Shown here piece by piece: positions 1-14,769 of a stretch of 14,769 nucleotides of DNA. Where the stretch lies: contig CANLGS010000027.1 in NCBI GenBank assembly GCA_947490035.1, positions 1-14,769 of the forward strand. Direction: 5' to 3'. Position numbers and translations under genes: made by a program. The notes below the pieces were generated by a model. It saw nothing but the letters and a program-made list of their open reading frames with translations. It did not search any database and was not told the origin of the DNA. Origin of the DNA: Gemmataceae bacterium (lineage in GTDB: Bacteria > Planctomycetota > Planctomycetia > Gemmatales > Gemmataceae). Position 1 is the first letter of the stretch. The number at the start of each line of letters is the position of its first letter.

Positions 1-2
1 GA

Positions 3-215
3 ATGCGCGTCACGCAACTGCTCCTCGAAGTCGAGTCGGTGCTGGCCGCAACCGACGTGCGCAACTTGGCCGACGCCGCGAAGGCCGCCGCGAAGCTCGG
101 CGAGATCGACCGCCAGTTCGCCGCGCTGTCGGGCAACGGGCGACTGGAGAAGGCGCGCGTGTACCTGAAGGACCAACTCAGGAAGCTCAAACTCGCCAGC
201 ATCGAAGCCGTCTGA
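3..215 (+). CDS. Small helical protein of unknown function (70 aa), possibly the C-terminal end of a longer gene
   Basis: I do not recognise the family. The frame encodes 70 residues rich in Ala, Leu, Lys and Arg, predicted almost entirely helical, with a basic C-terminal half (around RVYLKDQLRKLKL). There is no signal peptide, membrane segment or Cys motif. The ATG lies two bases inside the window, so no ribosome binding site can be seen; the frame may continue upstream and this Met may be internal. Third positions are nearly all G or C, as in the neighbours, so it is very probably coding. It is followed by a post-stop motif and a GC hairpin that recur after other genes of this cluster. It may be a small accessory or DNA-binding protein, but nothing in the sequence settles that. 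Confidence 0.6.
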   Translation: MRVTQLLLEVESVLAATDVRNLADAAKAAAKLGEIDRQFAALSGNGRLEKARVYLKDQLRKLKLASIEAV

Positions 216-221
216 GTACGC

Positions 222-231
222 ACCCGCTGTC
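222..231 (+). repeat. Post-stop motif ACCCGCTGTC, copy 1
   Basis: The 10-mer ACCCGCTGTC starts 7 nt after the stop codon of the 70-aa gene. The identical 10-mer occurs 9 nt after the stop of the 290-aa gene at 2894-2903. In both places it sits between the stop codon and a GC-rich hairpin, and the bases right after the stop are also alike (TGAGTACGC and TGAGCACGC). This suggests a duplicated 3' module, not chance. Role unknown. Confidence 0.5.
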
Positions 232-239
232 AATCGTGA

Positions 240-284
240 CCGGCACGGCGACTAACGTTGAGGTCGCCGCGCCGGCTTTCTTTT
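240..284 (+). terminator. GC-rich hairpin plus T-rich run after the 70-aa gene
   Basis: The arms at 240-252 and 263-275 form a 13-bp stem with one A-C mismatch (245/270) and a 10-nt loop. They are followed directly by CTTTCTTTT at 276-284. This is the layout of an intrinsic terminator, although the T run is interrupted by C. It could instead be an attenuator or RNA-processing site, because the leader of the next reading frame follows within 25 nt and similar hairpins recur at other junctions in this cluster. Confidence 0.55.
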
Positions 285-305
285 CCACTCACAACGGAGT
301 TCATC

Positions 306-489
306 ATGGTCCCACAAGGAGATCGTCTGGCTCCGCGAGCACCACCCCGAACGGCTCGCCCGCGCGCGCGCCATCGAGGCGAACGCCCGGCCCAACTTGA
401 CCTCGGTGGTCGGACTGGGCCGGTCGTTCTCGTGGGCCGAGTTTCTCGCGGACCTCGACCACATGCCGCTCTTCGACTGTCGCGACTGA
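306..489 (+). pseudogene. Start-less gene remnant; its C-terminus resembles PAPS-reductase/ATP-pyrophosphatase-like proteins
   Basis: A leader with CCACTC (285-290), a ribosome site (CGGAG, 295-299) and ATG at 306 is in place. The coding-like frame, however, is one base off: it reads from 307 (WSHKEIVWLREHHPERL, then RPNLTSVVGLGRSFSWAEFL, ending FDCRD) to the stop at 487-489. That frame has strong G/C third positions and sensible protein composition. It is open only from 262 and has no ATG, GTG or TTG before the conserved-looking segment. The reading from the ATG itself gives only Arg/Pro-rich shadow sequence. The likeliest explanation is an internal deletion that joined the start of a gene to its last roughly 60 codons out of frame. 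Resemblance to the C-terminus of PAPS-reductase-like proteins is from memory and tentative. A base error in the assembly at 306-310 is the alternative. Confidence 0.5.
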
Positions 490-516
490 GCCACTCGTTC
501 CCACCCGAGGAGACAC

Positions 517-1920
517 ATGGACCCGAACGAGTTGCTCAAGGTGCTCGACCTGGGCGCGAAGCCCGCGCGCCCGCCGGACGGTGCAAAAGCCACGCCCGTC
601 ACCGACACGACGACCGAGACCGAGGAGCCGCAGAGTCCGACGGCGCTCGCGCTCGACGAGTGGGGGTTGCGCCGCGGGCGCGACCTCGTCGCCGAGAGCG
701 AGCGGCTGCGGAAGTCCGGCACCGACGCGTTCGCCGCCGCGGACTTCTTCGCAGCCGCGTTCGAGCCGGACCCGAAGTTGGTGGGCGCGTGCGCCGACCC
801 GCGGCGGCACGAGTTCCTCGCGCAGATGCTGGACACGCCCGAGTACCGGGCGCTGCACGCCGCCACCCGACTCGACGACACCGCCGCCGCGATCGCCGCG
901 GGGCACTTCGCCGAGCAGTTCGCCAAACTCAAGACGGAGGACACGACGGAGACCGCGGGCGGATCCGCGCCCACGGAGAGCGGGGGCGACCTGTCCCGCG
1001 AGATGGCGGCCCTGCGCGCGGTCGGCAAGGCCGTCGTCGAAGCGGGCAAGGAGGTGAGCGACCTGAAGGACGCGGCGTCCGCGATGGGACTGGGGCCGGG
1101 CGAGCCGGGGAGCAACGACCCCCGCGCCATCGCGGAAATCTACAAGCGGGTGCGCTACGATCCGGGGCTCCGCAAGATCAGCGAACTCGCGGGCCGGTTC
1201 CGCCGGGTCGCGCAGTCGAAGCAGCGGCAGAAGGTGTCGCACGGACTGGACGACGTGGTCGGCGTCGAGCCGGGCGGCGACATCGGACGGCTGTTGCCCT
1301 CGGAGTTGGTCCGGCTCGCGGTGCCGGAGTTGGAACTCGACACCCTGCGCCGGATCGTCGAACGTCAAGCCCTCTGCCGCGAACATCACGCCGTCGAGCC
1401 GGTGGGCAAAGGGCCGATCGTCTGCGTTGTCGATGAATCCGGGTCGATGGACGGGGCCAAGGCGCACACCGCGAAGGCGCTCGCGCTGGCTCTGGCGTGG
1501 GTGGCCCGACAGCAGCGCCGGTGGTGCGGGCTGGTCGCGTATAGTGGCAAGTCCGGCGAACGGCTCCTCGCACTGCGGCCCGGCCGGTGGAACGAGGCCG
1601 CGCTGTGCGACTGGCTGTCGGCGTTCATCGGGCACGGCTCGGACCTCGACGTGCCGATCGAGGAAATGCCCCGGATGTACCAGGAGATCGGCGCGCCGCT
1701 GGGCGTGACCGACCTGATCTTCCTGACCGACGCGCGGGCGCGCATCCCGGCCGACCTGCGCGCCCGGTTCCTCGCCTGGAAGCGACAGACGCGAGCCCGC
1801 GTCGTCTCCCTCGTCATCGACAACCCGCCCGGCGACCTGGCACTCGTCAGCGACGAGGTGCACTCGGTCCGGTCACTCGACCCCGCCGCCGACGCCGTCG
1901 GCCGGGTTCTGTCGCTCTGA
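517..1920 (+). CDS. VWA-domain protein, ViaA/CoxE-like (467 aa)
   Basis: The C-terminal half is a von Willebrand factor A domain, roughly residues 298-467. A complete metal-ion-dependent adhesion site is visible: D306-x-S308-x-S310 in VVDESGSM, Ser375 in GHGSDL (where ViaA-type proteins usually have Thr) and D405 in FLTDA. The region before it (about 205-295, with DPGLRKISELAGRFRR) resembles the helical middle part of ViaA/CoxE-type proteins. The first 200 residues are acidic and low in complexity. There is no signal peptide, so it is probably cytoplasmic. Known relatives work with MoxR/RavA AAA+ ATPases in protein-complex assembly or metal insertion; none is in the window. The start is ATG 517 with a strong GAGGAG site 5-10 bases upstream and a CCACTC element at 491-496. 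It is one of the best-supported functional calls of the left cluster, though the client is unknown. Confidence 0.85.
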   Translation: MDPNELLKVLDLGAKPARPPDGAKATPVTDTTTETEEPQSPTALALDEWGLRRGRDLVAESERLRKSGTDAFAAADFFAAAFEPDPKLVGACADPRRHEFLAQMLDTPEYRALHAATRLDDTAAAIAAGHFAEQFAKLKTEDTTETAGGSAPTESGGDLSREMAALRAVGKAVVEAGKEVSDLKDAASAMGLGPGEPGSNDPRAIAEIYKRVRYDPGLRKISELAGRFRRVAQSKQRQKVSHGLDDVVGVEPGGDIGRLLPSELVRLAVPELELDTLRRIVERQALCREHHAVEPVGKGPIVCVVDESGSMDGAKAHTAKALALALAWVARQQRRWCGLVAYSGKSGERLLALRPGRWNEAALCDWLSAFIGHGSDLDVPIEEMPRMYQEIGAPLGVTDLIFLTDARARIPADLRARFLAWKRQTRARVVSLVIDNPPGDLALVSDEVHSVRSLDPAADAVGRVLSL

Positions 1921-1953
1921 ACCGGCAACCCGTTCCGAATCTGATCCCGTACC

Positions 1954-1987
1954 CGACCCGGCGGAACGTCCGCCGGGTCGCTTCGTT
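1954..1987 (+). terminator. Perfect 12-bp hairpin between the VWA gene and the 290-aa gene
   Basis: The arms CGACCCGGCGGA (1954-1965) and TCCGCCGGGTCG (1969-1980) are perfectly complementary around a 3-nt loop, and CTTCGTT follows. The stem is very stable, but the trailing run has only a few Ts, so full termination is uncertain. The next gene's CCACTC element (1989-1994), GGAGG and GTG start follow within 35 nt. It may act as a terminator, an attenuator or an mRNA stability element. Confidence 0.6.
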
Positions 1988-2012
1988 TCCACTCGCGCGA
2001 AGGAGGTTACCC

Positions 2013-2885
2013 GTGACCGCGACCGTTCCGTTACCGGTGCCCGTGGGCGCCGGCACCCGCTTGTTGGGCGAGGTGATCGCCTGGGCGTGCCCCGGCCTCG
2101 CTGTTCCGCACGCCGACCTGGTGCGCGCGCTCGAAGCCGCCGACCTCGATCCGGGGGTGGCACGCGAACTGGCCCCGCGACACGCGTTCGCCCGCGCGTG
2201 CAAGCGGCTCTCGGACCAGCGCATCATCCGCCCGGTCGCCGAGGACGCGACCACCATCAAGTTCCAGTTCACCCAGGAGACCCGCGAAGACGACCGCTAC
2301 GAGTACACACTGGAGACCACACTCACGCTCGACAAGCAGACCGGCGGCGTGTCCTGCGCGCTGCCCGGCCTGGCCACCGCGGCGCAAGAGGAACTCGACC
2401 GCTGCATCGCGGTTCGCACGGGTTCGGACGTAACGCGAGTGGTGCAGAAACTGTTCGAGCGCCAGGCGGACCTCTTCGGCATTCGACCGGGTGGGGGCTG
2501 CTACTTCGTCCCGCAGCAACACGCCGGCTTCACCGACAAGATCCAGGTGTTCCTGAACCGCGTGGGCGGGCGGTTGCTCCGGTTCCCCGTGCCGGCGGGC
2601 ACCGAGGAAGGCGACCGCTCGGTGACCCAGGCGGTGGCCGACGGACTCGCGGCCGTGGTCGCCGAGCACCGCGCCGCGGTGGCGCAGTTCGGGACCGACA
2701 CGCGGGCCGACACGCTCCAGCGCGCCGCCGAGAAGATCCGCAACACGAAGTTCAAGTTGCAAACCTACGCCGAGTACCTCTCCGGCGAGCGCGAGCGTCT
2801 CGACCGCGCGGTCGCCGACGCCGAGCACGCGCTGCGCGCGAGGGTCGCCGAGATCGCGGGCGAGTCCGCCGAACCCGCCGTGTGA
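2013..2885 (+). CDS. Protein of unknown function with C-terminal coiled coil (290 aa), possibly DUF6744-like
   Basis: GTG at 2013 is preferred over any upstream in-frame start because the AAGGAGG ribosome site lies at 2000-2006 and the frame upstream runs into the VWA gene and a hairpin. Residues 55-110 look alpha/beta (KRLSDQRIIRPV, then a beta-rich stretch with YEYTLETTLTL). Residues 140-195 carry VVQKLFERQADLFGIRPGGG and CYFVPQQH, a pattern I associate tentatively with the DUF6744 family known from actinobacteria and phages. Residues 228-283 form a charged helix or coiled coil. No signal or membrane segment is present, so it should be cytoplasmic. A regulator or scaffold for the neighbouring VWA protein is one possibility, but the sequence does not demonstrate a function. 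Confidence 0.8.
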   Translation: MTATVPLPVPVGAGTRLLGEVIAWACPGLAVPHADLVRALEAADLDPGVARELAPRHAFARACKRLSDQRIIRPVAEDATTIKFQFTQETREDDRYEYTLETTLTLDKQTGGVSCALPGLATAAQEELDRCIAVRTGSDVTRVVQKLFERQADLFGIRPGGGCYFVPQQHAGFTDKIQVFLNRVGGRLLRFPVPAGTEEGDRSVTQAVADGLAAVVAEHRAAVAQFGTDTRADTLQRAAEKIRNTKFKLQTYAEYLSGERERLDRAVADAEHALRARVAEIAGESAEPAV

Positions 2886-2893
2886 GCACGCGA

Positions 2894-2903
2894 ACCCGCT
2901 GTC
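2894..2903 (+). repeat. Post-stop motif ACCCGCTGTC, copy 2
   Basis: This is identical to 222-231 and sits 9 nt after the stop codon of the 290-aa gene, again immediately upstream of a GC hairpin. Confidence 0.5.
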
Positions 2904-2910
2904 GTTTCCG

Positions 2911-2940
2911 GGCCGGTCCGCGGTGGACCGGCCTTCTTCG
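2911..2940 (+). terminator. GC-rich hairpin plus TTCTTCG after the 290-aa gene
   Basis: The arms GGCCGGTCC (2911-2919) and GGACCGGCC (2925-2933) are perfectly complementary around a 5-nt loop, and TTCTTCG follows at 2934-2940. The layout matches the hairpins at 240-284 and 1954-1987. A CCCCTC element (2943-2948) and the GGGAG ribosome site of the next gene follow closely. Confidence 0.6.
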
Positions 2941-2969
2941 TTCCCCTCGTCCCATTCCGGGAGACTGCG

Positions 2970-3260
2970 ATGGCGAATTGCCGCGTGTGCGTGCGGGACC
3001 GGACGGTGCTGTTCCTCACCGCCCCCGCGCTGTGGCCCGTGTGGCCCTTTCTACCCGTGGTGCGCCGGCGGCCGGGTCGGGCCGAGGAACTGGGGGTCGT
3101 GTTCGACGCGCGGGCCGCCGGGCGGGCCGGCTACGGCACGACCGTGTACCTCACGAACCTATTTTTTCTGCCGCCCGACCTGTCCGCGTTCCTGGCGCTG
3201 CCGCACGAGACGTTCGACACCGCGGAGGAACTGGCACGCGCCGGCTGGCGCGTTGATTGA
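2970..3260 (+). CDS. Small protein of unknown function (96 aa)
   Basis: The ATG at 2970 is preceded by GGGAG at 2959-2963. The protein begins with a CxxC pair (C4, C7) in CRVCVRD, followed by a hydrophobic, Trp/Pro-rich stretch (LFLTAPALWPVWPFLPVV), a central basic patch, and a neat C-terminal segment (LPPDLSAFLALPHETFDT, then EELARAGWRVD). The hydrophobic stretch is short and broken by prolines, so it is more likely a buried strand or helix than a membrane span. A single CxxC is not enough to claim zinc binding. High G/C at third positions and a good ribosome site support real expression. I do not recognise the family; a small partner protein of the cluster is plausible. A 7-bp hairpin overlaps its stop codon. 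Confidence 0.7.
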   Translation: MANCRVCVRDRTVLFLTAPALWPVWPFLPVVRRRPGRAEELGVVFDARAAGRAGYGTTVYLTNLFFLPPDLSAFLALPHETFDTAEELARAGWRVD

Positions 3261-3269
3261 CCTCAACGC
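3250..3269 (+). promoter_or_regulatory. Hairpin whose loop contains the stop codon of the 96-aa gene
   Basis: GCGTTGA (3250-3256) and TCAACGC (3263-3269) pair perfectly across a 6-nt loop that contains the TGA stop (3258-3260). The next gene's GAGGAG site begins 17 nt later. This could couple or separate translation of the 96-aa and clamp-like genes. It is short, so chance formation cannot be excluded. Confidence 0.35.
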
Positions 3270-3296
3270 TTCACCACCCCGATCCGAGGAGATTCC

Positions 3297-4697
3297 ATGA
3301 TCGCGTTCCCGCGCCGGCTCGCCCGGCGGTTCCGCGCCGCGTGCGCGAAGTGCACCTCCGGGCGCCCGCGCGGCCCGGCCCCGTGCGTCGTGATCCGGCA
3401 GGCGAACGGCCGCGTCACGCTTACCGCGACGTTCCCCGAAGTCACCCTCGAACTCGGGTACGGCACCTCCGCGCGGAGCCGGGCCGAAGTACTGGTCGTA
3501 CCGATGACCGCGCTGGAGGCCGTCGCCGCCAACGCCGACGAGCCGGTTGCGTTCGACGCCGGGGACCGGCTCGAAGGCGTCGCGCGGTGGGGCGCGGACG
3601 GCGTTGCCCCCGGCTCGGTCCCGGTGGCGTTCGTCCTGCCCGGCAAACAGCACGACCCGCTCCCGCGACCGGAGATGACGCTGGTCGCGGAAAAACTGCT
3701 CGCCGCTCTGCACGAGGCGGGGCGCACCTCCAGCCGCGAGGACGGCCGGTACGCGCTCAGCCGGGTTCAGGTCCGCGGCGCGAAGGGGCAGGTCATCGCC
3801 ACCGACGGCAAGGTCGCCGTCCTCTTCGGTGGGTTCACGTTCCCGTTTGCGGAGGACGTGCTCGTTCCCGCGATCCCGCTGTTCGGTTCGCCCGAGGTGC
3901 GCGACGAGACCGAGGCGCGTGTCGGCCGCACGACATCGCACCTGGTCGTCTCCGTGGGCGACTGGACGGCGTGGCACGGCGTCGCGCCGCCCGGCAAGTT
4001 CCCGGACGTGGCCGCCGTGATCCCACGACACGCGCCGACGACCGTGGCGCTCGACCGCGACGACGCGGCCGCGGTGTTCCCGCAGTTACCCGGACTGCCG
4101 GGCCAGGGGCACGATCTCCGACCGGTCACACTCGACGCGGACGGGCTTCTCATTGTCCGCGCCGGCGATGACACCGGCGCGGTGAAGGAAGTTCTTCTGG
4201 CCCGCTCGCCGGTCACGGGACCGGCGGCGCGGATCGTGCTGGACCGGCGGGCGCTGACCCGCGTGCTCGCGCTCGGCTGCCACACGCTGAGAATCACTCC
4301 CGGCAAAACCCTGGTCGGCGAGGGCGACGGCGTGACCGTGCTCGCCGCGCTCCTCGACCCGGAACTGGCAGTAACGTCCGGAACCCGCTTGCCCGGTTCT
4401 GACGCCAAAGTCCCACTCACCAATCCCAAACACAACCCCGACCCCGAAAGAGACACCGTCATGAAACCGCAGGAGCCAAACGGCCGCATCCCGGGCGCGC
4501 GACCAGACCCACCCACGAACGACGCGCCCGATCCGCTCGTTGCCGCCGAGGAGTTACGCGCGGCTCTGGCCGACGCCGCGACGAAGGCGGCCCGATTGGT
4601 GGCCGCACTGAAGATGTCGCAGAAGGAGAAGAAGGTGCTGGCGACCCTGTACGCCGGCCTGCAGCAGCTCAACCTCGGCACCGGAGGCGTGCGATGA
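3297..4697 (+). CDS. DnaN-like sliding-clamp protein fused to a small helical C-terminal protein (466 aa)
   Basis: Residues about 28-355 follow the three-domain order of the bacterial beta sliding clamp. Domain 1: RVTLTATFPEVTLEL, then VLVVPMTALEAV, ending near PLPRP. Domain 2: RYALSRVQVRG, then VIATDGKVAVL (clamp ATDGHRLA), a VLVPAIPLF strand, and GDWTAW followed by GKFPDVAAVIPR (clamp GRFPDYRRVLP). Domain 3: ARIVLDRRALTRVLALG, then LRITPGKTLV. The usual C-terminal VMPMRL is not recognisable. Clamps are ring-shaped DNA-bound processivity factors; whether this one forms a ring is unknown. Residues 356-388 are low-complexity and read like translated intergenic DNA; residues 389-466 form a separate helical module. 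The start ATG 3297 has GAGGAG at 3286-3291. The cluster context suggests a specialised paralogue, not the housekeeping dnaN, which normally sits beside dnaA. Confidence 0.8.
   Translation: MIAFPRRLARRFRAACAKCTSGRPRGPAPCVVIRQANGRVTLTATFPEVTLELGYGTSARSRAEVLVVPMTALEAVAANADEPVAFDAGDRLEGVARWGADGVAPGSVPVAFVLPGKQHDPLPRPEMTLVAEKLLAALHEAGRTSSREDGRYALSRVQVRGAKGQVIATDGKVAVLFGGFTFPFAEDVLVPAIPLFGSPEVRDETEARVGRTTSHLVVSVGDWTAWHGVAPPGKFPDVAAVIPRHAPTTVALDRDDAAAVFPQLPGLPGQGHDLRPVTLDADGLLIVRAGDDTGAVKEVLLARSPVTGPAARIVLDRRALTRVLALGCHTLRITPGKTLVGEGDGVTVLAALLDPELAVTSGTRLPGSDAKVPLTNPKHNPDPERDTVMKPQEPNGRIPGARPDPPTNDAPDPLVAAEELRAALADAATKAARLVAALKMSQKEKKVLATLYAGLQQLNLGTGGVR
4461..4697 (+). CDS. Internal start: small helical protein (78 aa) at the 3' end of the clamp-like gene
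   Basis: Within the clamp-like frame, ATG 4461 is preceded by a purine-rich GAAAGAGA stretch and by an A/C-rich, T-poor leader containing CCACTC (4413-4418), like the leaders of true starts in this cluster. The 78 residues from here have an acidic, Pro-rich head and then a long helix (VAAEELRAALADAATKAARL to KEKKVLATLYAGLQQLNL). This looks like an independent small gene that has become fused to the clamp frame, or that is also translated on its own from the internal start. Its stop overlaps the next gene's ATG (ATGA), indicating translational coupling. Function unknown. Confidence 0.45.
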   Translation: MKPQEPNGRIPGARPDPPTNDAPDPLVAAEELRAALADAATKAARLVAALKMSQKEKKVLATLYAGLQQLNLGTGGVR

Positions 4698-5254
4698 CCG
4701 CCCTCGTCACGCAACGGGTCCACCGGCTGGCCGACTCGCTCGCGGAACTGAAAGTCAAAGTCCGCGCGGCCCTGGCGACCGAACTGGCCGGCGCCGTCGG
4801 CGGCGCGGTCCGCGACGTGCTGGTCGCTGCCCTCATCGACCATGTCCTCGCCAACGCGACCCGACCCTCGACAAGCCACCCGGCACCGCGCCCGGGCGAG
4901 TGGCGCGACGACGAGTACGAGGAGCGCGACCGCTGGGGCGAAACCCGCGATCCGTGGTCCGCCCCCGACCCCTCCGACGCGCGCATGTCCGCGCGCTACG
5001 GGCGCGACACGCGCGACGAAGTGAAACTGACGCCTGCGGTGCCGACGGCAGCGGCAATCGCGGTCGGGGTGAACGTCGCGCGGTGGTGGCTGGCCCGCCG
5101 GGGTACGCTCCCCGCGGCCGTCGGCTTCGGCGTGCTGGCGACGGCGCTGGGGCTGGCCGGCGGCCCCGTCGCCGGCGCCGCGCTCGCCGTCCTCACCGTC
5201 GCGACCGATCTCCTCACCGCCGAGTCCGTTCTCGCCCGCCTCGATCCGATCTGA
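4694..5254 (+). CDS. Membrane protein of unknown function, helical head and C-terminal membrane hairpin (186 aa)
   Basis: The start ATG overlaps the stop of the clamp-like gene (ATGA at 4694-4697), so translation is probably coupled. Residues 5-55 form an amphipathic helix (RLADSLAELKVKVRAAL, then AVRDVLVAALIDHVL). Residues 57-112 are a charged, Pro/Asp/Arg-rich linker (EWRDDEYEERDRWGETR). Residues 116-135 and 139-173 are hydrophobic, Ala/Gly/Val-rich and fit two membrane spans separated by a basic RR turn. There is no cleavable signal. The head probably faces the cytoplasm, where the clamp-like and VWA proteins would be. The layout (helix, linker, membrane hairpin) is repeated in the next gene. 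Family not recognised. Confidence 0.75.
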   Translation: MTALVTQRVHRLADSLAELKVKVRAALATELAGAVGGAVRDVLVAALIDHVLANATRPSTSHPAPRPGEWRDDEYEERDRWGETRDPWSAPDPSDARMSARYGRDTRDEVKLTPAVPTAAAIAVGVNVARWWLARRGTLPAAVGFGVLATALGLAGGPVAGAALAVLTVATDLLTAESVLARLDPI

Positions 5255-5307
5255 CACAGGCAACTCCGTCACCCGGCGTCCCTCACGCACGCGCCTCCGC
5301 CCGTAAC

Positions 5308-5328
5308 CCCGACCCAGGAAGGGTCGGG
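5308..5328 (+). promoter_or_regulatory. Perfect 8-bp hairpin in the 169-nt gap between the two membrane-protein genes
   Basis: CCCGACCC (5308-5315) pairs with GGGTCGGG (5321-5328) across the loop AGGAA. No T run follows, so a plain terminator is less likely. The gap also begins with a post-stop sequence (GGCAACTCCGT) resembling the one after the VWA gene (GGCAACCCGTTCC), and ends with an A/C-rich leader and GGAG before the next ATG. Confidence 0.45.
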
Positions 5329-5423
5329 CACAGCCGGACAGGTCGCGCGCCGGGGAGCCGCGGAGTGACGTTCCCGCAACACCGACTCACCACAACCACC
5401 ATCCAAACACCGGAGAATCAGAC

Positions 5424-6026
5424 ATGTCCGCAACCGACACGATGAACGGCAAGCCGCAGCGCAAGCAACTGGCGGACCAACTCGACCGCCTCGACGGGAT
5501 CATCGACGCCCTGGCCGCCGGGCTCAACCAGGCGGTGGCCGACGCCGCCCGCGAGGGCACCCGCTTGGCCGTCAAGGACGCGATCGTCGAGATCATGACC
5601 AACCCCGAACTCCGGGCGATGCTCGCCCCCGCGCGCCCGGAGCCGACCCCCGCGCCCGTCGCGCCACCGCCCGTGGCCGCGCCGAAGCAGCCCGGCCCGT
5701 GGGCCCGGCTCAAGACCAAGGTCGCCGCGGCGCGTGACGCGCTGACCGGTGCGGCCACCAAGACGAAGGAGGCGGTGACGTCCCGGTGCCGGGCCGCGAG
5801 CGACGCCGTGGCCGCCGCGGGCACGGTCGCCGGCGAGGCGCTGCCGCTGCGCCGGATGCTGTGCGTGGGCCTCGGCGTCGGGCTGGCGGTCGGCATCGTC
5901 TGCCTGGTCGTGCCGCACGCCGCCGCGGCGGCCGTCGGCGCGGTGAGCGTGGCGAGCACCACCGTCGCCGTCCAGACCGGGAGCTGGTTGAAGCGGGCCG
6001 CCCGCCGCTTCGGCCTGGTGAGTTGA
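5424..6026 (+). CDS. Membrane protein of unknown function, similar architecture to its neighbour (200 aa)
   Basis: ATG 5424 is chosen because GGAG lies at 5412-5415; a second in-frame ATG at codon 7 is less well placed. Residues 12-66 are an amphipathic helix or coiled coil (QLADQLDRLDGIIDALAAGL, then REGTRLAVKDAIVEIMTNPE). Residues 67-92 are a Pro/Ala linker. Residues 93-140 form a basic helix (ARLKTKVAAARDAL, TKTKEAV). Residues 145-186 are hydrophobic and could form one or two membrane spans, followed by a basic tail (KRAARRFG). The helical head and membrane tail echo the 186-aa protein upstream, suggesting distant paralogues or a hetero-oligomer. No enzymatic motif is seen. Confidence 0.75.
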   Translation: MSATDTMNGKPQRKQLADQLDRLDGIIDALAAGLNQAVADAAREGTRLAVKDAIVEIMTNPELRAMLAPARPEPTPAPVAPPPVAAPKQPGPWARLKTKVAAARDALTGAATKTKEAVTSRCRAASDAVAAAGTVAGEALPLRRMLCVGLGVGLAVGIVCLVVPHAAAAAVGAVSVASTTVAVQTGSWLKRAARRFGLVS

Positions 6027-6089
6027 CCGGAATCGGCGGAAAGGGTTCAGTCGAATGAGCGCGTTCGGTGAAGGAAATCGGCCGGTCAA

Positions 6090-6111
6090 GCACGCGCCTT
6101 CGGGTGCGTGC
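6090..6111 (+). promoter_or_regulatory. 9-bp hairpin capped by a UUCG tetraloop
   Basis: The arms at 6090-6098 and 6103-6111 pair over 9 bp (one G-U) and close with C(UUCG)G, the exceptionally stable RNA tetraloop. It lies 64 nt after the 200-aa gene and 116 nt before the microprotein start, with no T run. It is likely an RNA stability, processing or anti-readthrough element. The rest of 6027-6226 shows no convincing gene. Confidence 0.55.
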
Positions 6112-6226
6112 GTCAGCCCGTGCGATACCCGGAATCGAACGCCACTCTCCGACCGAATCTCGTCCGCCAACTCCGACTTCGTGACGCTGTTCCCGTACCC
6201 CTCAACCCCACGTCCCGGAGACCGCC

Positions 6227-6295
6227 GTGCTGTACCTGATCGCCGCCATCTTCTTCGCGCTGATGGTGTTCGACGCCGCCCGCGAGATGCCGTAG
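6227..6295 (+). CDS. Single-span membrane microprotein (22 aa)
   Basis: GTG 6227 is preceded by CGGAG at 6216-6220 and by a CCCCTC element at 6198-6203, the same leader arrangement as other starts in the cluster. The product starts (M)LYLIAAIFFALMVFDAAR and ends EMP. It is almost entirely hydrophobic up to a charged tail, so it should sit in the membrane as one span. Third positions are G/C-biased, and a second gene with its own ribosome site follows 33 nt later. It is too short for homology arguments; expression is inferred from the leader and composition. It may be a small subunit or regulator of the two larger membrane proteins. Confidence 0.45.
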   Translation: MLYLIAAIFFALMVFDAAREMP

Positions 6296-6328
6296 GTTCG
6301 CCCAACAGACTTTAACACAGGAGCCGTT

Positions 6329-6523
6329 GTGGCCAAGACCGTGGTGATCGACGAGATCCACGTGACGATCCGCGTCCCGAGTGACCTGCCCGAGGTCCGG
6401 GCCGCCGAGATCCACCGGGTGCTCACCGGCAAGGACTTCATGAACCGCTTGCGCCGGGCCGTACGAGCCGCTCTCCGGGTCTTCCCGGAATTGCAAGCGG
6501 TGCATTTGTCGCTGACCCGCTGA
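6329..6523 (+). CDS. Small protein of unknown function (64 aa)
   Basis: GTG 6329 is preceded by AGGAG at 6319-6323. The protein begins with a beta-like stretch (KTVVIDEIHVTIRVP), continues with an acidic helix (LPEVRAAEIHRVL), then a basic amphipathic helix (FMNRLRRAVRAALRVFPEL) and a short closing strand (AVHLSLTR). This compact alpha/beta fold with no signal peptide suggests a soluble cytoplasmic protein. The family is not recognised by name. It is the last gene of the + strand series and is followed by a strong hairpin. Confidence 0.7.
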   Translation: MAKTVVIDEIHVTIRVPSDLPEVRAAEIHRVLTGKDFMNRLRRAVRAALRVFPELQAVHLSLTR

Positions 6524-6676
6524 CGTAGCCGAGTCGATGTCCGTCCCTCCACGCTCCCAACTGGGAACGGGTGGGACGGGCATCAGCTCCAGTGCGTTAC
6601 CGGGGAGGTGAACCGCGGGCCTTTTCTTTAGCCCTTGGGTGGCGCGCCGGCTCGGGTGTCGGACGAGTGATTGATA
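6524..6676. other. Convergent intergenic region, left part
   Basis: No gene is supported here. The stretch holds the 12-bp stem at 6536-6584. Further on there is a weaker GGGC/GCCC stem (6617-6634) around a pyrimidine-rich loop. Both lie where transcription from the left and right halves would meet. Confidence 0.5.
6536..6584. terminator. 12-bp stem with nested hairpin at the convergent junction
   Basis: GATGTCCGTCCC (6536-6547) pairs with GGGACGGGCATC (6573-6584) over 12 bp with one G-U. Inside, TCCC/GGGA (6555-6558, 6563-6566) pairs across a 4-nt loop. It begins 12 nt after the stop of the 64-aa gene and faces the end of the opposite operon, so a terminator for one or both strands is likely. 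No long T run is present. Confidence 0.55.
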
Positions 6677-6922
6677 TCAGCGCCAGAGGTGCCGCATCGG
6701 CCGGAGCGCACCGCCGGTGAGGAGGTGTTCCGGAGCCGGTGCGAGGTGCGCGTATTCGAGTGCCCGCTGGGCATCGGTCAAGGCGGTGGGGCGGGTTCCG
6801 CTGGGACCGCGGAACTCACTACCCGATCGGCCGGCAGCCGGCCGGGCTGGAAGTCCGCGGCCGGTGCAAGGGATGCAGAAGCGCAAAGGCCCGCGAGACC
6901 GCAGAGGAGCACGAACGCGCAT
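6677..6922 (-). pseudogene. Probable frame-broken secreted-protein gene after the DUF1501 gene
   Basis: An ATG at 6922-6920 lies 20 nt after the DUF1501 stop, matching the 24- and 19-nt gaps inside that operon. Read straight through, the frame gives 81 residues. One base out of step, however, just after the ATG, the sequence encodes a good signal peptide (FVLLCGLAGLCASASLAPAA, then DFQPG) before hitting a stop near 6775. The 3' part has G/C-rich third positions in the ATG frame (LTDAQRALEYAHLAPAPEHL). The coding signal therefore switches frame, as expected for a decayed gene with indels. The signal-peptide start is reminiscent of DUF1549-type proteins, but this is too short to assign. An assembly indel or a genuine short protein are alternatives. 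Confidence 0.35.
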
Positions 6923-6942
6923 CGGTGTGCCTTCGGGGAGGG

Positions 6943-8391
6943 TCAGGTGAGCCCGGGGATCGGCTCGCCCTGCTCGACGCGGCGCAGCAGGTCGGCCCGG
7001 ATGTTCGGGAACAGGCGCAACTTCGTCGGGTCGAGCAGGGTTCGCAACACGGTGGAAATCAGGTCCGCGGTCGTCACCGGCGTCGTGACCGGACGACCGG
7101 CTTCGTGATCGGATTTGCCGATCACCTGACCCATCTTGAACCCGCCGCCGGCGAGGAACAGCGGGGCCAGGGTCGGCCAGTGGTCGCGCCCGCCCTTGGG
7201 GTTGATCTTCGGCGTGCGCCCCATCTCGCCGCACACGACCAGCAGGATCCGGTCCTCTAGCCCGCGCTCTTTCACGTCGTCGAGGAACGCGGACACGGCC
7301 CGGTCGAGCTGCGGCCCGAAGCCTTCGAGCCCGGCCTTCACGCCCGGGTTCAGCCCTTCGTTGTGGAAGTCCCACCCGCAATTCTCGACCATCACCAGCC
7401 CGGCCCCGGCCTCGCACAGCCGCCGGGCCAGGAGCATCTGCCGACCGAGCATCGACGGCCGCCGCGGGAAATCGGGCAGTTTCAGGAAGTTCGGGCACGT
7501 CAGGGTGATGTCGCTCGTGTCGTACCGCTCGACCGTCTTCGGCTCCTCGCGGTCGAGCCGGAACGCCTCCGCGACGCTCCCCTTGAGCACCTTGTACGCC
7601 TGCTCGATGTACGCGTCGTGGGCGGCGAACGCCCGGTCCGATTCCAGCCCGCGGGTCGCGGTGTCGAGACCGCGGAGCAGTTCGCGGCGGTCCGCGGCGC
7701 GGTCGGCCGGGAGCCGCAGTTCCATGTTGTGGAGCAGAGGCGAGAAGGTGACGTCACCGTCCGGCTTCCGTTGCGGCCCGGTCGGCTTCGGCGGTTTCGT
7801 GATAACGCCCGCCGGGTTGAACGGGGCGTAGGCGTCGGGCAGGTCGCCGTGGGTGTTGCCGCGGAGGAAGTGCTCCTGCAGGAACTCCTTGTTGTTGCCG
7901 CTGTCGAGCACGATGTAACTGGGCATCCCCGTGTTCGGGTGGTTGGTGCCGCGCAGGTACGAGTACACCGAACCGGCGCTGGGCGGCGACAGCTTCGCAT
8001 CGGTGCCGGTGAGCATCGCGCGGACCCAGTTGTCCTGGTGGTCCTTGCACGGGGTCTGGAACGAGCGGACGACCGCGAGCCGGTTCGCGCGCTCCGCCAG
8101 CTTCGGAAAGTGACTCCCGAAAGCGACCCCAGGGAGCACGGTCTTGGTCTCGCCGAACATGGTGCGGACCTTGTCCGACGCGCCCGGCTTCGGGTCCCAC
8201 GTCTCGGCCTGCGGCGGGCCACCGCCGAGCCACAGCCACACCACCGACTTGTCCCGCACCCACGGTTTGTCGGCCGGTTCGCCCCCGCGGAGCAGGCGCG
8301 GCAGGCTCAGCGTGCCCAGCCCGGCCGCGCCGACGCGCAGGAACGCGCGCCGCGAACGGCCCCCGGAGTCGCCCGGTCGGATTGTGAACAT
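6943..8391 (-). CDS. DUF1501 family exported protein (482 aa)
   Basis: A twin-arginine signal is visible (SRRAFL at residues 13-18, hydrophobic stretch to about residue 33), so the folded protein is exported by Tat. Family landmarks follow: WLGGGPPQAETWDPKP (54-69), SFQTPCKDH (110-118), GWDFHNEG (339-346), VVCGEMGRTP (385-394), GGRDHWP (400-406) and GQVIGKSD (421-428). DUF1501 proteins are abundant in Planctomycetes and related to the alkaline-phosphatase/sulfatase fold; the reaction is not established. The gene starts 19 nt after the DUF1080 gene. ATG 8391 is preceded by CGGAG; a nearer upstream ATG is in another frame. The DUF1549/DUF1553 partner often adjacent in this phylum is not intact here. 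Confidence 0.93.
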   Translation of the reverse strand: MFTIRPGDSGGRSRRAFLRVGAAGLGTLSLPRLLRGGEPADKPWVRDKSVVWLWLGGGPPQAETWDPKPGASDKVRTMFGETKTVLPGVAFGSHFPKLAERANRLAVVRSFQTPCKDHQDNWVRAMLTGTDAKLSPPSAGSVYSYLRGTNHPNTGMPSYIVLDSGNNKEFLQEHFLRGNTHGDLPDAYAPFNPAGVITKPPKPTGPQRKPDGDVTFSPLLHNMELRLPADRAADRRELLRGLDTATRGLESDRAFAAHDAYIEQAYKVLKGSVAEAFRLDREEPKTVERYDTSDITLTCPNFLKLPDFPRRPSMLGRQMLLARRLCEAGAGLVMVENCGWDFHNEGLNPGVKAGLEGFGPQLDRAVSAFLDDVKERGLEDRILLVVCGEMGRTPKINPKGGRDHWPTLAPLFLAGGGFKMGQVIGKSDHEAGRPVTTPVTTADLISTVLRTLLDPTKLRLFPNIRADLLRRVEQGEPIPGLT

Positions 8392-8410
8392 ACGCCATTG
8401 CTCCGGTGCG

Positions 8411-10354
8411 TCACTTCGGTTGTACGATCTGGATCAGTACGAGATTGCGGTACTCCGCCGCGACGGTCCCCGGCAGCGCGACCTTCCCGCCCGCGACCGG
8501 GGGCGGCACGTCGGTTCGCTCCTCGCCGTTGACCTCGATGCGCGTCTTGCCGTCGCGCACGGTAGCCTCCATCAGGTTCCAGCCGTCAGCGCCCTTGAAC
8601 GGCGCCTTGTCGCCCGGCTTCCAGGCGTCCGTCTTCACCTGACAGCGGAACACGAACGACGGCCCGTGTGCGGTCGTGAGTGTCAGCGGTTGCTTGCCGG
8701 TGCCGTCGCACACCAACTTGCCGAACGCCCGAAGCCGCCCGTTCGGGTCGCGCGCCGCGGGCTTCGCGGACCACGCCTTCTCGCCCTCAGGGGGTTTCCA
8801 GCCGTCGAGGTCGGTATCGTTGTACACCCGGACCGCGTCACCGAAGGCATCGGCGTACGTCTTCAGGTGGAGTTCGCGGAAGGACACGCGCATCTCCGTC
8901 CCCTTGCCACCGTGAATCTGAAGGGCGATGACGCCGTCGTCGTTCCGGCGCTTGCGGTCGGCGGTCGTCTCGTCCCGGTCGATGTACTCGACCACCGGGT
9001 AGCCGTTGATGAAGTGTGTGAGGTGATTGCCGCGACAGACCACGTCGCACCGCGCCCACTCGTCCTTCGCGTAGTACTTCCTGGGATACAGCCACTTCGT
9101 ATCGGCGACCTGCCCCGCGACGACGCCCTTACCCTTCTCGTGGACCACCGATTCCCCGACGCCGACGCCGGGTCCGCTGTGCGACTGGTGGTACAGGCCG
9201 CCGGTGCCGAGGCCGTTGAGGAAGTCGGCCTGGTAGCCGCCCACGGAGAAGCCCTTCGGGTGCAGCCGCGTGCTCCGGTACTGCACGCCCGAGTTGAACT
9301 CCCCCATCTTGAACTCGCACCGGAAGTGGAAGTCCTTCACGATCGCGTCCTTGTCCCCGTCCCGCAGGATCAGCCAACTGCTGTTCGCGACCGGCCCGGC
9401 GTCCGGGTGCCCGCCCTCGATGACGCCGTCCTTGACCCGCCACAGGCCGGCCTCCGCGTCCCAACCGCGGAGGTCTTTCCCGTTGAACAGCGAGCGGAAG
9501 GCCGGCTCATTACCCGCGGCGAGCGGGGCCTTGTACGTGACCTTCCCCTCCACGCGGACCGGGTCGGGGCTCGGGACGAAGCCCTCGCGGGTCGCGGGTT
9601 CGCGGTCCGGCAGGTGGTCCGGGCCGCGGTACGGGCGGCCCGGCAACTTGTCGCCTTCGAGCTTCGTCTCCGGGGGGACGATCGTCCCGTCGGTCAGCGA
9701 GACGCGCACCACCCGCCCGGACTTGTCCTTCACGGCCCGCGGGGGGGTGACACGGAACTCCAGCACGGTATAGTCCGGGCTGACCCGGTAGAACGCGTAC
9801 CCGTGCCGCGGGGTCTCCTTCCACCTCAACCCGGGGTACTCGACGATCCAGTGAATCCGGTTGAACACCACGAGGGTGTTGTCCCACTCGTCCGGCGTGA
9901 GGAAGTCGTTCACCCCGAGCGCCTTCACCACGGAACCGTCCTTCTTGTAGATCACGAGCCGGCGGCTGTAGTGAGTGTCGGCGCGGTCCTTCGCCTTCCC
10001 CGGCTCGCCCCACAACTTGTTCGCGCCGTGCATGTCGGACTTCCCATCCGTCCACAGCACGACGTGGGTCCACAGGGCGAACGTCTCCCCGTCCGGGGCG
10101 ACGAACAGGTGTCCGAACACCTGCCCGCCCGGCACCTCCTTCGCGTCGAACCGCTGCGTTTTCTTTTCCTTCGTGTCGGTCCACACGAACTGCCACTTGT
10201 TGGGGCCGTGGTTGGTCACCTTGCCGACCGGCTCGGCGGTGACGACGAACCGGCCGTCCGCGGAGCGGCAGCCGTCGATGTGGCACGGCGGCTCGTACCC
10301 GGCGCGGGCGAGCGCCGGCACGGCGAGGATGACGAGAAGGGTGAGCGTTCGCAT
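8411..10354 (-). CDS. Secreted DUF1080 (3-keto-disaccharide hydrolase-like) multidomain protein (647 aa)
   Basis: A Sec signal peptide covers residues 1-18 (MRTLTLLVILAVPALARA). Residues 20-205 form an N-terminal domain (FVVTAEPVGKVTNHGPNKW, FGHLFVAPDGETFALW) that looks like a planctomycete beta-rich secreted domain. Residues 286-500 are DUF1080: FRSLFNGKDLRGWDAEAGLW, VIEGG, FRCEFKMGEFNSGVQYRS, HFINGYPVVEYID, IALQIHGGKGTEMRV. Residues 505-642 form another lectin-like module (VYNDTDLDGWKPPEGE, GWNLMEATVRDGKTRIEVNG, EYRNLVLI), which resembles a second, diverged DUF1080-type sandwich. DUF1080 has a concanavalin-like fold; some members act on 3-keto-glycosides. The gene lies 24 nt after the PQQ-type gene, in an operon. 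It probably acts in the periplasm or at the surface. Confidence 0.9.
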   Translation of the reverse strand: MRTLTLLVILAVPALARAGYEPPCHIDGCRSADGRFVVTAEPVGKVTNHGPNKWQFVWTDTKEKKTQRFDAKEVPGGQVFGHLFVAPDGETFALWTHVVLWTDGKSDMHGANKLWGEPGKAKDRADTHYSRRLVIYKKDGSVVKALGVNDFLTPDEWDNTLVVFNRIHWIVEYPGLRWKETPRHGYAFYRVSPDYTVLEFRVTPPRAVKDKSGRVVRVSLTDGTIVPPETKLEGDKLPGRPYRGPDHLPDREPATREGFVPSPDPVRVEGKVTYKAPLAAGNEPAFRSLFNGKDLRGWDAEAGLWRVKDGVIEGGHPDAGPVANSSWLILRDGDKDAIVKDFHFRCEFKMGEFNSGVQYRSTRLHPKGFSVGGYQADFLNGLGTGGLYHQSHSGPGVGVGESVVHEKGKGVVAGQVADTKWLYPRKYYAKDEWARCDVVCRGNHLTHFINGYPVVEYIDRDETTADRKRRNDDGVIALQIHGGKGTEMRVSFRELHLKTYADAFGDAVRVYNDTDLDGWKPPEGEKAWSAKPAARDPNGRLRAFGKLVCDGTGKQPLTLTTAHGPSFVFRCQVKTDAWKPGDKAPFKGADGWNLMEATVRDGKTRIEVNGEERTDVPPPVAGGKVALPGTVAAEYRNLVLIQIVQPK

Positions 10355-10378
10355 GGTGTGCCTCGGCGTCAGTGTGGA

Positions 10379-11938
10379 TTACTTGCGGCGCAGATCCCAG
10401 CAGTAGATGCCGTCGGCCCCGCGGAGGTACAGGTGACCCGCGACGACCGGGTGGCTGATCGGCATCTCGTAGCCGGTCGCGTCGTAGTGCGGGGTGTTCC
10501 ACGGCTTGCCCATCGGCTTGAAGGTGTCGGCGGTCGTGCCGAGCATGAGCACGTCGTGGGTGCTCCCGTGCTGGCTGTCCGGCTCGTGGAAGAACCTCCC
10601 TTCGGCACAGTACCCGTGGCTCTCCTGGTCGGTCTTCGCGCCGTCGAAGCGGGCCAGCACCTTCCCGCTGTTCACGTCGAGCATGGCGGTTCCGGCCTTG
10701 GTGCGAACAAAGGCGCGGTCCTTCCACACCGGCAGCCCGCTCATGCCGCCACTGACGAATCCGACCTTCTCGTCGCCGGTGTGCTCCCAGAGTTTCTTCG
10801 CGCCGGCCGGGGTGATCTTCCAGCCGCTCGCGCGGCCCAGCAACTTCTCGTCGCCGGGGCCGAGCGGTTCCTTGCCGGCGTTCAGCAGTAGTACGTCGCC
10901 CGCGACGGAGAGCGTCGATTCCTGCCGGCCCGTGTCGAGCGTCCACCGCTCCTTGCCGGTGAGCGGGTCGAGACAGCGCACCTTGCCGTCGACGTTCCCG
11001 CAAAGGACCGATTCGCCGCCCGCGTGAACCCAGCGCGTCGGGGTGGCGTGGTGGGCGAGGCACTTCGGCACCTGCCAGAGTTTCTTGCCGGTCGCGCCGT
11101 CGAACCCGATCAGCCCGCCCTGGAAGTCCGGGCACACCAGCACGCCGGCGGCGAACGTCGAGCCGTGGCAGTGCCCGCGGTTGATCCCGCCGAACGACTT
11201 CTTCTCGGCCAGCCCCTTCTTCTTGACCTCTTCGAGTTTCAGGTGTTCGGCCCCGAGGTCGCCCTCCCACACGAGCTTGCCGGTCGCAGCGTCGAGGCAG
11301 TACACGCGGCACGTCGAACCGATCACATAGACCCGACCGCCGAACACGGCCCCGGTGTGGTTGGTGATGATGCTCTTGTGGTCGGTCCAGTTCAACCCCT
11401 TGTCCTTGAACACCTGCTTCCAGAGAGTCTTGCCGGTGGCCGCGTCTACGGCGAGCACCACGTCGTCGGCCGAGACTCTCCAATAGTCCGGGGTCCAGGT
11501 GCCCGGTCCCAGGTCCCGCTTCTTCTGCTCACCCGCGTCCACGACCTCGCCGCTGGGAACGAAGTAGCTGGCGAACACTTTCCCATCCGCGACCAGCAGG
11601 CTGGTCGCCCCGCCGCCGGGCAGCGGGATGCCGCCGCCGGACGTCGCCTCGCCGCCAGCCGCGAGCGGAATCTTGATGGGCTTGAAGTCCTTGAGCGAGA
11701 TGCCATGCCAGCCGTGCCCTCCGTACCGCGGACTCTGCGCGGCACCGGGCGGCGTCGGCTCCTGGCTCTTCCACACCAGTCGGGCGTCCTTCAGGTCGTC
11801 CACGAGCGTCAGCCCGCAGTCGGTGGCGCTGAAGTTCCCGTTCGGCCCCTGGTAGCACGGCCACGACGGATTCTCTGCAGCCGAGACGGTTCCCGTGAGC
11901 AATCCGAAAACAGCGAAGACAAGCGGAGCAGTCTTCAT
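10379..11938 (-). CDS. Secreted PQQ-like beta-propeller repeat protein (519 aa)
   Basis: A Sec signal peptide covers residues 1-20 (cleavage after GTVSA). Propeller blades of the PQQ type are marked by repeated D-x-x-T/S-G-K-x-x-W motifs: VLAVDAATGKTLWK (161-174), VYCLDAATGKLVWE (212-225), LIGFDGATGKKLWQ (276-289), VRCLDPLTGKERW (320-332) and a weaker MLDVNSGKVLARF near 419. The pattern fits a seven- or eight-bladed propeller; nothing proves PQQ binding, and such proteins in Planctomycetes are often called PQQ-binding-like without enzyme activity. Several Cys and His residues (GHCHGS, CLAHH) are unusual and could bind metal. ATG 11938 has an AGAGGG site upstream. It is the first gene of the three-gene unit. 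Confidence 0.9.
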   Translation of the reverse strand: MKTAPLVFAVFGLLTGTVSAAENPSWPCYQGPNGNFSATDCGLTLVDDLKDARLVWKSQEPTPPGAAQSPRYGGHGWHGISLKDFKPIKIPLAAGGEATSGGGIPLPGGGATSLLVADGKVFASYFVPSGEVVDAGEQKKRDLGPGTWTPDYWRVSADDVVLAVDAATGKTLWKQVFKDKGLNWTDHKSIITNHTGAVFGGRVYVIGSTCRVYCLDAATGKLVWEGDLGAEHLKLEEVKKKGLAEKKSFGGINRGHCHGSTFAAGVLVCPDFQGGLIGFDGATGKKLWQVPKCLAHHATPTRWVHAGGESVLCGNVDGKVRCLDPLTGKERWTLDTGRQESTLSVAGDVLLLNAGKEPLGPGDEKLLGRASGWKITPAGAKKLWEHTGDEKVGFVSGGMSGLPVWKDRAFVRTKAGTAMLDVNSGKVLARFDGAKTDQESHGYCAEGRFFHEPDSQHGSTHDVLMLGTTADTFKPMGKPWNTPHYDATGYEMPISHPVVAGHLYLRGADGIYCWDLRRK

Positions 11939-11960
11939 GGATTTCCCTCTTTCTCCTTCG

Positions 11961-12009
11961 GGTTCGGCTGCGAAGTTCGTTGAGCCATGACGCTTGCCCT
12001 CGCCGAACC
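11961..12009 (-). promoter_or_regulatory. 8-bp inverted repeat spanning the gap before the PQQ-type gene
   Basis: GGTTCGGC (11961-11968) and GCCGAACC (12002-12009) are perfect inverted repeats 33 nt apart. One arm abuts the stop codon of the upstream gene and the other the ribosome-site region of the PQQ-type gene. It may be a terminator or attenuator, or an operator; the loop is long, so confidence is modest. Confidence 0.35.
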
Positions 12010-12011
12010 GG

Positions 12012-13169: not shown

Positions 13170-13312
13170 CTCGAAACTCCTTCAAGGAACTTGCGGGCGA
13201 AGCGAGACCCGGGAAGCACGATGCCGCCTGGTGCGGATTCGGAACGGCTCGAAAACAAGTTCCCGATATTCCCACCCCGGGCAGGCGGCGATGAGAAGTG
13301 TCCCGGCGCGCA

Positions 13313-14296: not shown

Positions 14297-14397
14297 CGAG
14301 GTTCCTCCGGTTGGGGGCGGTGCTGGACGAACTCTGAATCCCTATCGGGCCCATCGGGCAACTTGAGGAATGAAGGCCACGATCCTGCCGACACGCG

Positions 14398-14769
14398 TCA
14401 CTTCTTGTAGTCGGCCTCGGTCTTCTCGGCGGCCCAGAACAGCGCCCGAGCCAGCATCACGCGGACGCTCTCCTGCGCCTCGATGTCGCGCGGGTCGTGG
14501 ACCGTGTAGAACGTCCGCTGTTTCGTGTCCTTGTTGATCCGGCACCACGTCTCCGGCTCCTTCGAGTCCTTCATTTCGATCAGCACGGTCACGTCGTCGG
14601 CGACCAGCTTGTGCTTGTAGCCGCGGTCGGTGAGGGTGAACTTCGTCAACTCCGTCAGCCCCTTCACGGTCGGGTGATCGGCGGAGCCTTCCTTGATCTG
14701 CTGCGTGCCGCCGTGGTGCCCGGCGAAACCGCCGCCGAAGATCAGGTCGCCGTAACCGCCGCTGAACCC
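14398..14769 (-). CDS. ThuA-like domain protein, 3' part only (123 aa seen)
   Basis: The frame is open to the right window edge, so the 5' part of the gene lies outside; the GTG at 14667 is internal and not a start. Visible ThuA-type features are GGGFAGHHGGTQQI, a DHPTVKGL block (family HPI..G), VLIEM, and near the end ETWCRINKDTKQRTFYTV followed by VRVMLARALFWAAEKTE. These match the terminal strands and helix of trehalose-utilisation/ThuA-like glutamine-amidotransferase-fold proteins. In Planctomycetes they often occur with DUF1080 and other sugar-related secreted proteins, consistent with the genes downstream here. Whether a signal peptide is present cannot be seen. Confidence 0.8.
   Translation of the reverse strand, partial: GFSGGYGDLIFGGGFAGHHGGTQQIKEGSADHPTVKGLTELTKFTLTDRGYKHKLVADDVTVLIEMKDSKEPETWCRINKDTKQRTFYTVHDPRDIEAQESVRVMLARALFWAAEKTEADYKK

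Follow-up and report, generated by a model that had tools for sequence, protein, structure and literature searches.

Sliding clamps are textbook parts of the replication machinery, and in Escherichia coli a second product, beta*, is made from an in-frame start within dnaN itself. In-frame internal starts also give the C-terminal small subunits Cas11d and SctQ/SctQC. DnaN homologues can confer self-resistance to griselimycin, and the motif through which proteins bind a clamp usually includes an aromatic residue. MoxR-vWA pairs are chaperones of wide distribution, for most of which no target is known, and a DUF1257/DUF2997/AAA-like trio occurs in cyanobacteria. MoxR-vWA pairs were assigned to conflict systems by Kaur et al. 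(2020, PMC7159879), in the main text of which DnaN, sliding, clamp, PCNA and processivity are not mentioned, and such pairs, the metallopeptidase-vWA form included, were proposed to act in jumbo-phage virion assembly by Iyer et al. (2021, PMC7824862). For Cas11b, a small subunit produced by in-frame internal translation has been described (PMC11899642).

The window (the whole stretch of DNA analysed, 14,769 nt) encodes a divergent sliding clamp of the DnaN fold that belongs to a planctomycete family found beside AAA+ modules in repeated, mobile-looking copies. All genes of the module lie on the plus strand. The first (1..215) is a AAA+ ATPase gene of the MoxR/RavA type, of which the contig start leaves only the C-terminal end and the complete relative of which is 376 aa; the assignment is based on a blastn match of window positions 3-313 to 6914-7223 of locus L034. 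The full L034 counterpart matches PF20030 bpMoxR (E 2e-48), the AAA+ type of the MoxR-vWA beta-propeller systems, and the NCBIfam RavA model (E 1.8e-54, 185.6 bits, below the cut-off of 681). The next gene (517..1920) encodes a ViaA-like vWA protein of 467 aa, likely a co-chaperone of the AAA, with a match to NCBIfam ViaA below cut-off (E 6.1e-19, 68.6 bits, cut-off 500) and one to PF13519 only at E 0.0057, also below cut-off. Since the AAA and the vWA protein of the window type fall below the RavA and ViaA cut-offs, they are relatives of RavA-ViaA, not members; the clamp module, unlike RavA-ViaA and MoxR-vWA systems, adds DUF6744 and a clamp. The vWA protein also matches phrog_24053 (E 9.8e-23), the family of the vWA protein adjoining MoxR in Moorella phage MTATph1, and no propeller family was found in its Pfam scan.

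A DUF6744-like protein of 290 aa follows (2013..2885), with a weak PF20529 match (E 1e-4, below cut-off); a relative at L045 9191-10087 exceeds the PF20529 cut-off (E 2.6e-10), and a fold search with the predicted DUF6744 structure gave no clear match. The small conserved protein c95 (96 aa, 2970..3260), which had zero Pfam or PHROG matches, was present in 11 of 23 sources, window included. The clamp gene itself occupies 3297..4697 (466 aa), and its stop is overlapped (ATGA) by the start of x186 (4694..5254), a 186-aa protein with a hydrophobic C-terminal half and zero Pfam or NCBIfam matches. It is followed by m200 (5424..6026; 200 aa, by alignment conserved in the N-terminal part and hydrophobic in the C-terminal part), relatives of which occur in 14 of 59 genomes searched, the window's genome counted, and by s64 (6329..6523), a conserved 64-aa protein that is the final gene of the conserved block. 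DNA homology with a second copy in a neighbouring genome (window 516-6642 versus L034 7215-13348, 85.6% identity) ends at approximately 6642. The remaining minus-strand genes (6943-14769; DUF1501, 3-keto-disaccharide hydrolase, PQQ-type propeller and others) resemble ordinary planctomycete chromosome genes. Rfam gave no match on the window at the gathering threshold, and more permissive Rfam searches over six loci yielded two matches below threshold, which were not used.

Clamp matches were found in 25 of 59 genomes searched (the window's genome counted), several copies being present in some. A protein database search with the clamp gave 228 matches, and among the best 120 the name, wherever there was one, was "hypothetical" or "uncharacterized" protein. 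Gene neighbourhoods were drawn from 23 sources using a home-made gene caller, with a clamp called in 22. Eleven of these clamps are accompanied by MoxR, vWA and DUF6744 genes (the MoxR gene of the window being cut), six by a DUF1257-like gene, DUF2997 and another AAA (type B), and one (L051) by a third set (type C) of AAA, DUF6744 and metallopeptidase-vWA genes; three (L037, L042 and L044) have DUF6744 without a recognised MoxR or vWA, which suggests module decay or insertions at these loci, and one (L033) begins at a contig edge. An AAA+ module or DUF6744 part thus adjoins the clamp at 21 of 22 loci, the remaining one being that at the contig edge. In the 23rd source, L054, the type B set is present with only a partial clamp match. 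The type C families were identified on L102, with metallopeptidase-vWA being DUF2201, and this architecture is shared with the MoxR/metallopeptidase-vWA pair of jumbo phages; further type C clamps are at L102, L113, L114 and L115. The DUF1257/DUF2997/AAA trio stands beside clamps in other planctomycete families (L055, L048-L054), in some cases with a PD-(D/E)XK nuclease.

The connection between clamp and chaperone is one of gene order only. A clamp lies within 5 kb of 19 of the 34 DUF6744 matches (from 18 of 198 sampled genomes); the other 15 have none within that distance, some owing to contig ends, and clamp-less DUF6744 modules include two in genome G202, three in genus g19 and one in G015. 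The clamp is therefore common in these modules without being obligatory. At L097 (genome G202), a type C module that lacks a clamp, the core profile gave a single weak match (E 8.6e-4), possibly left over from a lost clamp or due to chance. hhalign detected no homology of the 310-aa protein of type B to the DUF6744 protein of type A, or of the small proteins of types A and B to each other, and in a search of the partner proteins for canonical clamp-binding motifs no alignment position was matched in more than three members of any family.

Several copies have the appearance of mobile elements. Three copies in genome G019 share a block of about 6.0 kb with 86-90% identity and sharp ends, and two copies in G014 share about 7.7 kb with 92-99% identity. 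Serine recombinases are encoded within about 8 kb of the clamps in L034, L043 and L051 and adjoin the clamp-less elements L107 and L108, while a scan of about 10 kb around the other clamp loci of 14 genomes gave no PF07508 recombinase; the window is truncated on the side where one would be sought. A tyrosine integrase gene follows the clamp-less module L089, and another is about 3.5 kb from the tail gene of L111 (see below); further tyrosine integrases (PF00589) may lie near other clamp loci. A phage or plasmid origin by direct similarity was dropped: tblastn with the clamp (E 0.01) had no match among 50,697 phage and 72,556 plasmid records, and an IMG/VR scan with the family alignment and a single pattern matched 21 stretches, none of them a relative. 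Two of the G019 copies (L045 and L047) are followed by a T-arm-like sequence that was considered as a tRNA site; neither ARAGORN nor Rfam called a tRNA there, and since the only tRNA that ARAGORN found in 24 sources lay within a coding gene in L039, this idea was also dropped.

The core of the clamp protein (residues 1-360, 3297..4376; AF2 pLDDT about 94) consists of three clamp domains in a single chain, with the DnaN fold matched over residues 1-357. The family profile matched beta clamps in all 26 of its PDB matches (best E 7.1e-10), and hhalign of the family against DnaN gave E 1.9e-13, with sequence identity to DnaN chains of about 9-18%. The first-pass annotation's description of a three-domain DnaN-like clamp was thus borne out by structure prediction and profile homology; the DNA_pol3_beta HMM check that it had suggested was negative for this protein: the clamp has no Pfam match (E 1, DNA_pol3_beta models included) and no match to the NCBIfam dnaN or other models (E 0.1), and PF02767 finds only the housekeeping gene in its own genome. 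RusA-like PHROG matches of the clamp were rejected because genuine DnaN also matches such families.

Compared with E. coli DnaN (PDB 2pol and relatives), the family shares the three-domain fold, apparently most of the residues of the peptide-binding pocket, and positively charged channel segments. Mapping by hhalign shows E. coli T172, D173 and P242 retained in 40/40 clamps, R152 in 39/40, L155 in 36/40, G174 in 35/40, R24 in 34/40 and V247 in 28/40, with L177 replaced by Ala in 32/40; the C-terminal part of the pocket aligns uncertainly. The net charge of the channel segments, which were picked by the analyst from predicted helices, averaged +6.6 in the clamp family versus +6.6 in 31 DnaN proteins (+8 in the window clamp), and R197 and K198 are replaced by hydrophobic residues. 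Unlike DnaN, the clamp has about 100 extra C-terminal residues, lies beside AAA+ genes rather than dnaA/gyrB, escapes the Pfam and NCBIfam models, and has the dimer contacts I272/L273 replaced by Pro (38/40 aligned clamps) and Gly (37/40). A ring dimer on DNA and a role in polymerase processivity are putative for this core: with I272/L273 replaced, ring formation is not assured and a scaffold reading keeps its place among the alternatives. Clamp dN/dS was 0.36-0.47 (window versus three relatives), compared over up to five relatives with 0.19-0.39 for vWA, 0.09-0.31 for DUF6744 and 0.19-0.75 for m200; these values indicate a clamp under constraint, yet evolving faster than vWA and DUF6744. The L043 clamp was omitted from the family alignment, and from the internal-start gene set below, because it is interrupted by masked bases.

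The C-terminus of the clamp is a separable tail made of a linker and a conserved helix and mostly ending in QLNL. In the window, the low-confidence linker comprises residues 361-388 (4377..4460; pLDDT <50 at 365-406), and the 78-aa tail that begins at an internal in-frame ATG comprises residues 389-466 (4461..4697), with a predicted helix at residues 413-457 of the AF2 model. The first-pass annotation stopped at 4370; the last 100 residues, which it missed, proved the most informative part. The mean majority fraction is 0.68 at residues 411-440 versus 0.50-0.63 over residues 1-360, and QLNL stands at the tail end in 104 of 135 homologues longer than 420 aa. It resembles the clamp-binding motif, lacks the usual aromatic residue, and is offered as a lead only.

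A new finding is that clamp-less elements carry the same conserved helical tail as an independent gene of about 70 aa. L107 has such a standalone gene of 70 aa and L108 one of 72 aa; the standalone frame in L111 (71 aa) is degenerate. All three sit immediately before x186 and m200, so that x186 is found both after fused clamps and after standalone tails, and have ribosome-binding sites of the AGGAG or GGAG type. Along L107 the genes encode, in order, a serine recombinase, an HTH-like protein, a DnaQ-like exonuclease, GP88, the tail, x186, m200 and s64. The clamp-core profile had no match in L107 or L111 and one of E 0.063 in L108, a remnant or chance. A database search with the L108 tail gave 27 proteins of 66-125 aa, the query counted; as many of them come from short contigs, truncated clamps may be included. 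Tail-only matches at contig edges (L109 and L110) were not counted as standalone. Two histories are conceivable: fusion of the clamp to a tail gene that already existed, or standalone tails left over as remnants.

At the aligned start of the tail, fused clamps often have an ATG or GTG codon, and the preceding linker codons spell a Shine-Dalgarno sequence, e.g. GAAAGGAG. Using a fixed rule, a start codon with a Shine-Dalgarno sequence was scored in 20 of 32 non-redundant genes (34 distinct full-length clamp genes minus near-identical ones), where a synonymous-codon null gave a mean of 6.1 and a maximum of 14 in 4000 draws. The count was 17/20 for clamps with x186/m200 detected downstream (null mean 5.2, maximum 12 of 4000) and 3/12 for clamps without detected x186/m200 (null mean 0.8, maximum 4), with <1.5 kb of sequence available beyond the clamp in four of the latter. 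Over the seven codons leading up to the site, Arg was encoded by AGG/AGA in 21 of 30 cases versus 4.7% elsewhere in the same genes; this was counted in a selected set of 24 of the 32 genes, the remainder being four that were excluded because a start codon within 5 residues lacked a Shine-Dalgarno sequence, and four with none. The same selection biases a V=GTG count of 10/10, which was therefore left unused; under the fixed rule, only 9 of the 14 genes with V at the internal start site use GTG, with L041 and L013 scored at a GTC adjoining GTG and counted as negative. The window clamp retains the ATG (4461), but the upstream GAAAGAG (4446..4452) is a weak Shine-Dalgarno-like sequence that fails the criterion used, and the gene was scored negative. 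Between the window and L034, the linker has an amino acid identity of 0.42 and a dN/dS of 0.69 over 26 codons. As judged from sequence, most fused clamps with x186/m200 thus retain the tail's own start codon and Shine-Dalgarno sequence inside the open reading frame, and internal translation would give a free tail as a second product. Such a product, predicted from sequence, would resemble Cas11b, Cas11d, SctQ/SctQC and beta* in that a larger gene contains its in-frame start; it would differ from all of these in being only the non-clamp tail, which is also an independent gene.

These features suggest an element-borne clamp that is tethered through its tail, with the free tail as a second product, and that would serve as a DNA tether for a chaperone machine rather than as a polymerase processivity factor, a proposal given an even chance of being right. 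The clamp core would close around DNA, perhaps by a remodelled dimer contact; the tail helix may join the DNA-bound clamp to the free tail from the internal start and also to the hydrophobic proteins x186 and m200; and the clamp-tail complex could then be remodelled or recruited by the AAA-vWA pair. Such a tether might serve maintenance of the element, repair or defence. The fuller version, in which a mobile AAA+ chaperone module owns a private sliding clamp and a two-in-one gene whose ratio of clamp-tail to free tail sets DNA tethering, is held more tentatively, at somewhat below an even chance. In a literature search of titles and abstract openings, no account was found of this clamp, of an internal start in such a clamp, of DUF6744 or of a chaperone-clamp system. 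The occurrence of the clamp beside three AAA+ architectures gives the concrete hypothesis that such chaperones act on clamp-bound DNA complexes, and the embedded start, together with the tail as a gene of its own, is directly testable.

Other readings of the same data were weighed against this tether. The embedded start and Shine-Dalgarno sequence might be a passive relic of gene fusion that gives no product, as the linker resembles the stretch directly upstream of the standalone tails and the window copy has lost its good Shine-Dalgarno sequence; this is judged unlikely, given that both signals are kept in 17/20 genes despite fast linker divergence and that AGG/AGA codons, rare elsewhere in the same genes, are retained at the site. 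The clamp fold might instead have been reused, without encircling DNA, to provide the AAA-vWA chaperone with an adaptor or a platform for its substrates. The Pro-Gly replacement of I272/L273 and the better conservation of the C-terminal helix than of the core (0.68 versus 0.50-0.63) would fit such a scaffold, whereas the channel charge remains at the DnaN level, as most pocket residues appear to do, and the altered dimer contact is itself conserved, as expected of a remodelled interface, which leaves the scaffold doubtful. A further minority prospect is that the module is an anti-phage or other conflict system: the clamp would detect or label DNA under replication, on which the AAA-vWA pair would then act. 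The AAA matches bpMoxR, a branch assigned to conflict systems (PMC7159879), the clamp is multicopy and patchily distributed, the type B AAA resembles IetA (E 1.7e-17) and a PAPS-reductase-like gene at L043 resembles SspD (E 1.3e-13). Against this, PADLOC gave no match (E 0.01) for the clamp, vWA, DUF6744, x186 or m200, no effector was recognised, RavA and ViaA are also near relatives of the window-type AAA and vWA, and the main text of PMC7159879 has no mention of DnaN, clamp or PCNA.

A clamp for replication or recombination of the element, serving an element or host polymerase together with the DnaQ-like exonuclease of some copies, is rated as quite unlikely. It would account for the DnaQ-like exonuclease and serine recombinase genes of L034, L107 and L108, and many phages carry proteins matching clamp models of the DnaN fold; phage DnaN-type clamps (PHROG 947; gp84 of Mycobacterium phage Firecracker) belong to the same superfamily as the window clamp, and Firecracker also has an AAA of the type B family about 8 kb from gp84, although the family alignment gave no useful match to gp84 as a single sequence. 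However, no polymerase, primase or helicase was recognised in the scanned module genes, L107 has the exonuclease without a clamp core, and the clamp pairs with AAA+ modules. The suggestion of a mobile-replicon clamp in the first-pass annotation is thereby left half standing: recombinases and a DnaQ-like exonuclease do accompany some copies, while the scanned module genes include no DNA polymerase, helicase or relaxase. Another of its suggestions, that the protein is a decoy or confers resistance to an antibiotic directed at the clamp, has the precedent of griselimycin self-resistance in its favour and is considered highly improbable. Identity to DnaN chains is only about 9-18%, the window proteins scanned include no recognised biosynthetic gene, and AAA+ modules or a DUF6744 part adjoin 21/22 loci.

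The housekeeping dnaN is encoded elsewhere. In the window's own genome (68% complete), the single PF02767 match is at L001 1117-2244 on the minus strand and exceeds the cut-off of the dnaN equivalog TIGR00663; the adjoining gene, a cut piece, has gyrase B as its best match, below cut-off and with ParE models close behind. A PF02767 match was present in 40 of 41 genomes, the window's genome counted. The view that the window gene is a paralogue in an accessory setting and not the housekeeping dnaN therefore agrees with a separate dnaN beside a gyrB-like gene in the same genome and with accessory, mobile-looking surroundings. Neither of the observations that had been named as contrary to that view was made, as the model contains three clamp domains and another dnaN exists in the genome. 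Two further clamp genes were seen in passing. A second copy of the accessory clamp in the window's own genome (L105, contig C404) is in two pieces with 80% and 72% identity and a frame change near residue 243, either a pseudogene or an assembly error. In genome G002, a second true DnaN (L103 9040-10137, PF00712 and PF02767 above cut-off) lies near a SNF2-helicase/DNA-methylase fusion and a weakly PAPS-reductase-like gene, and represents a different accessory clamp in another setting.
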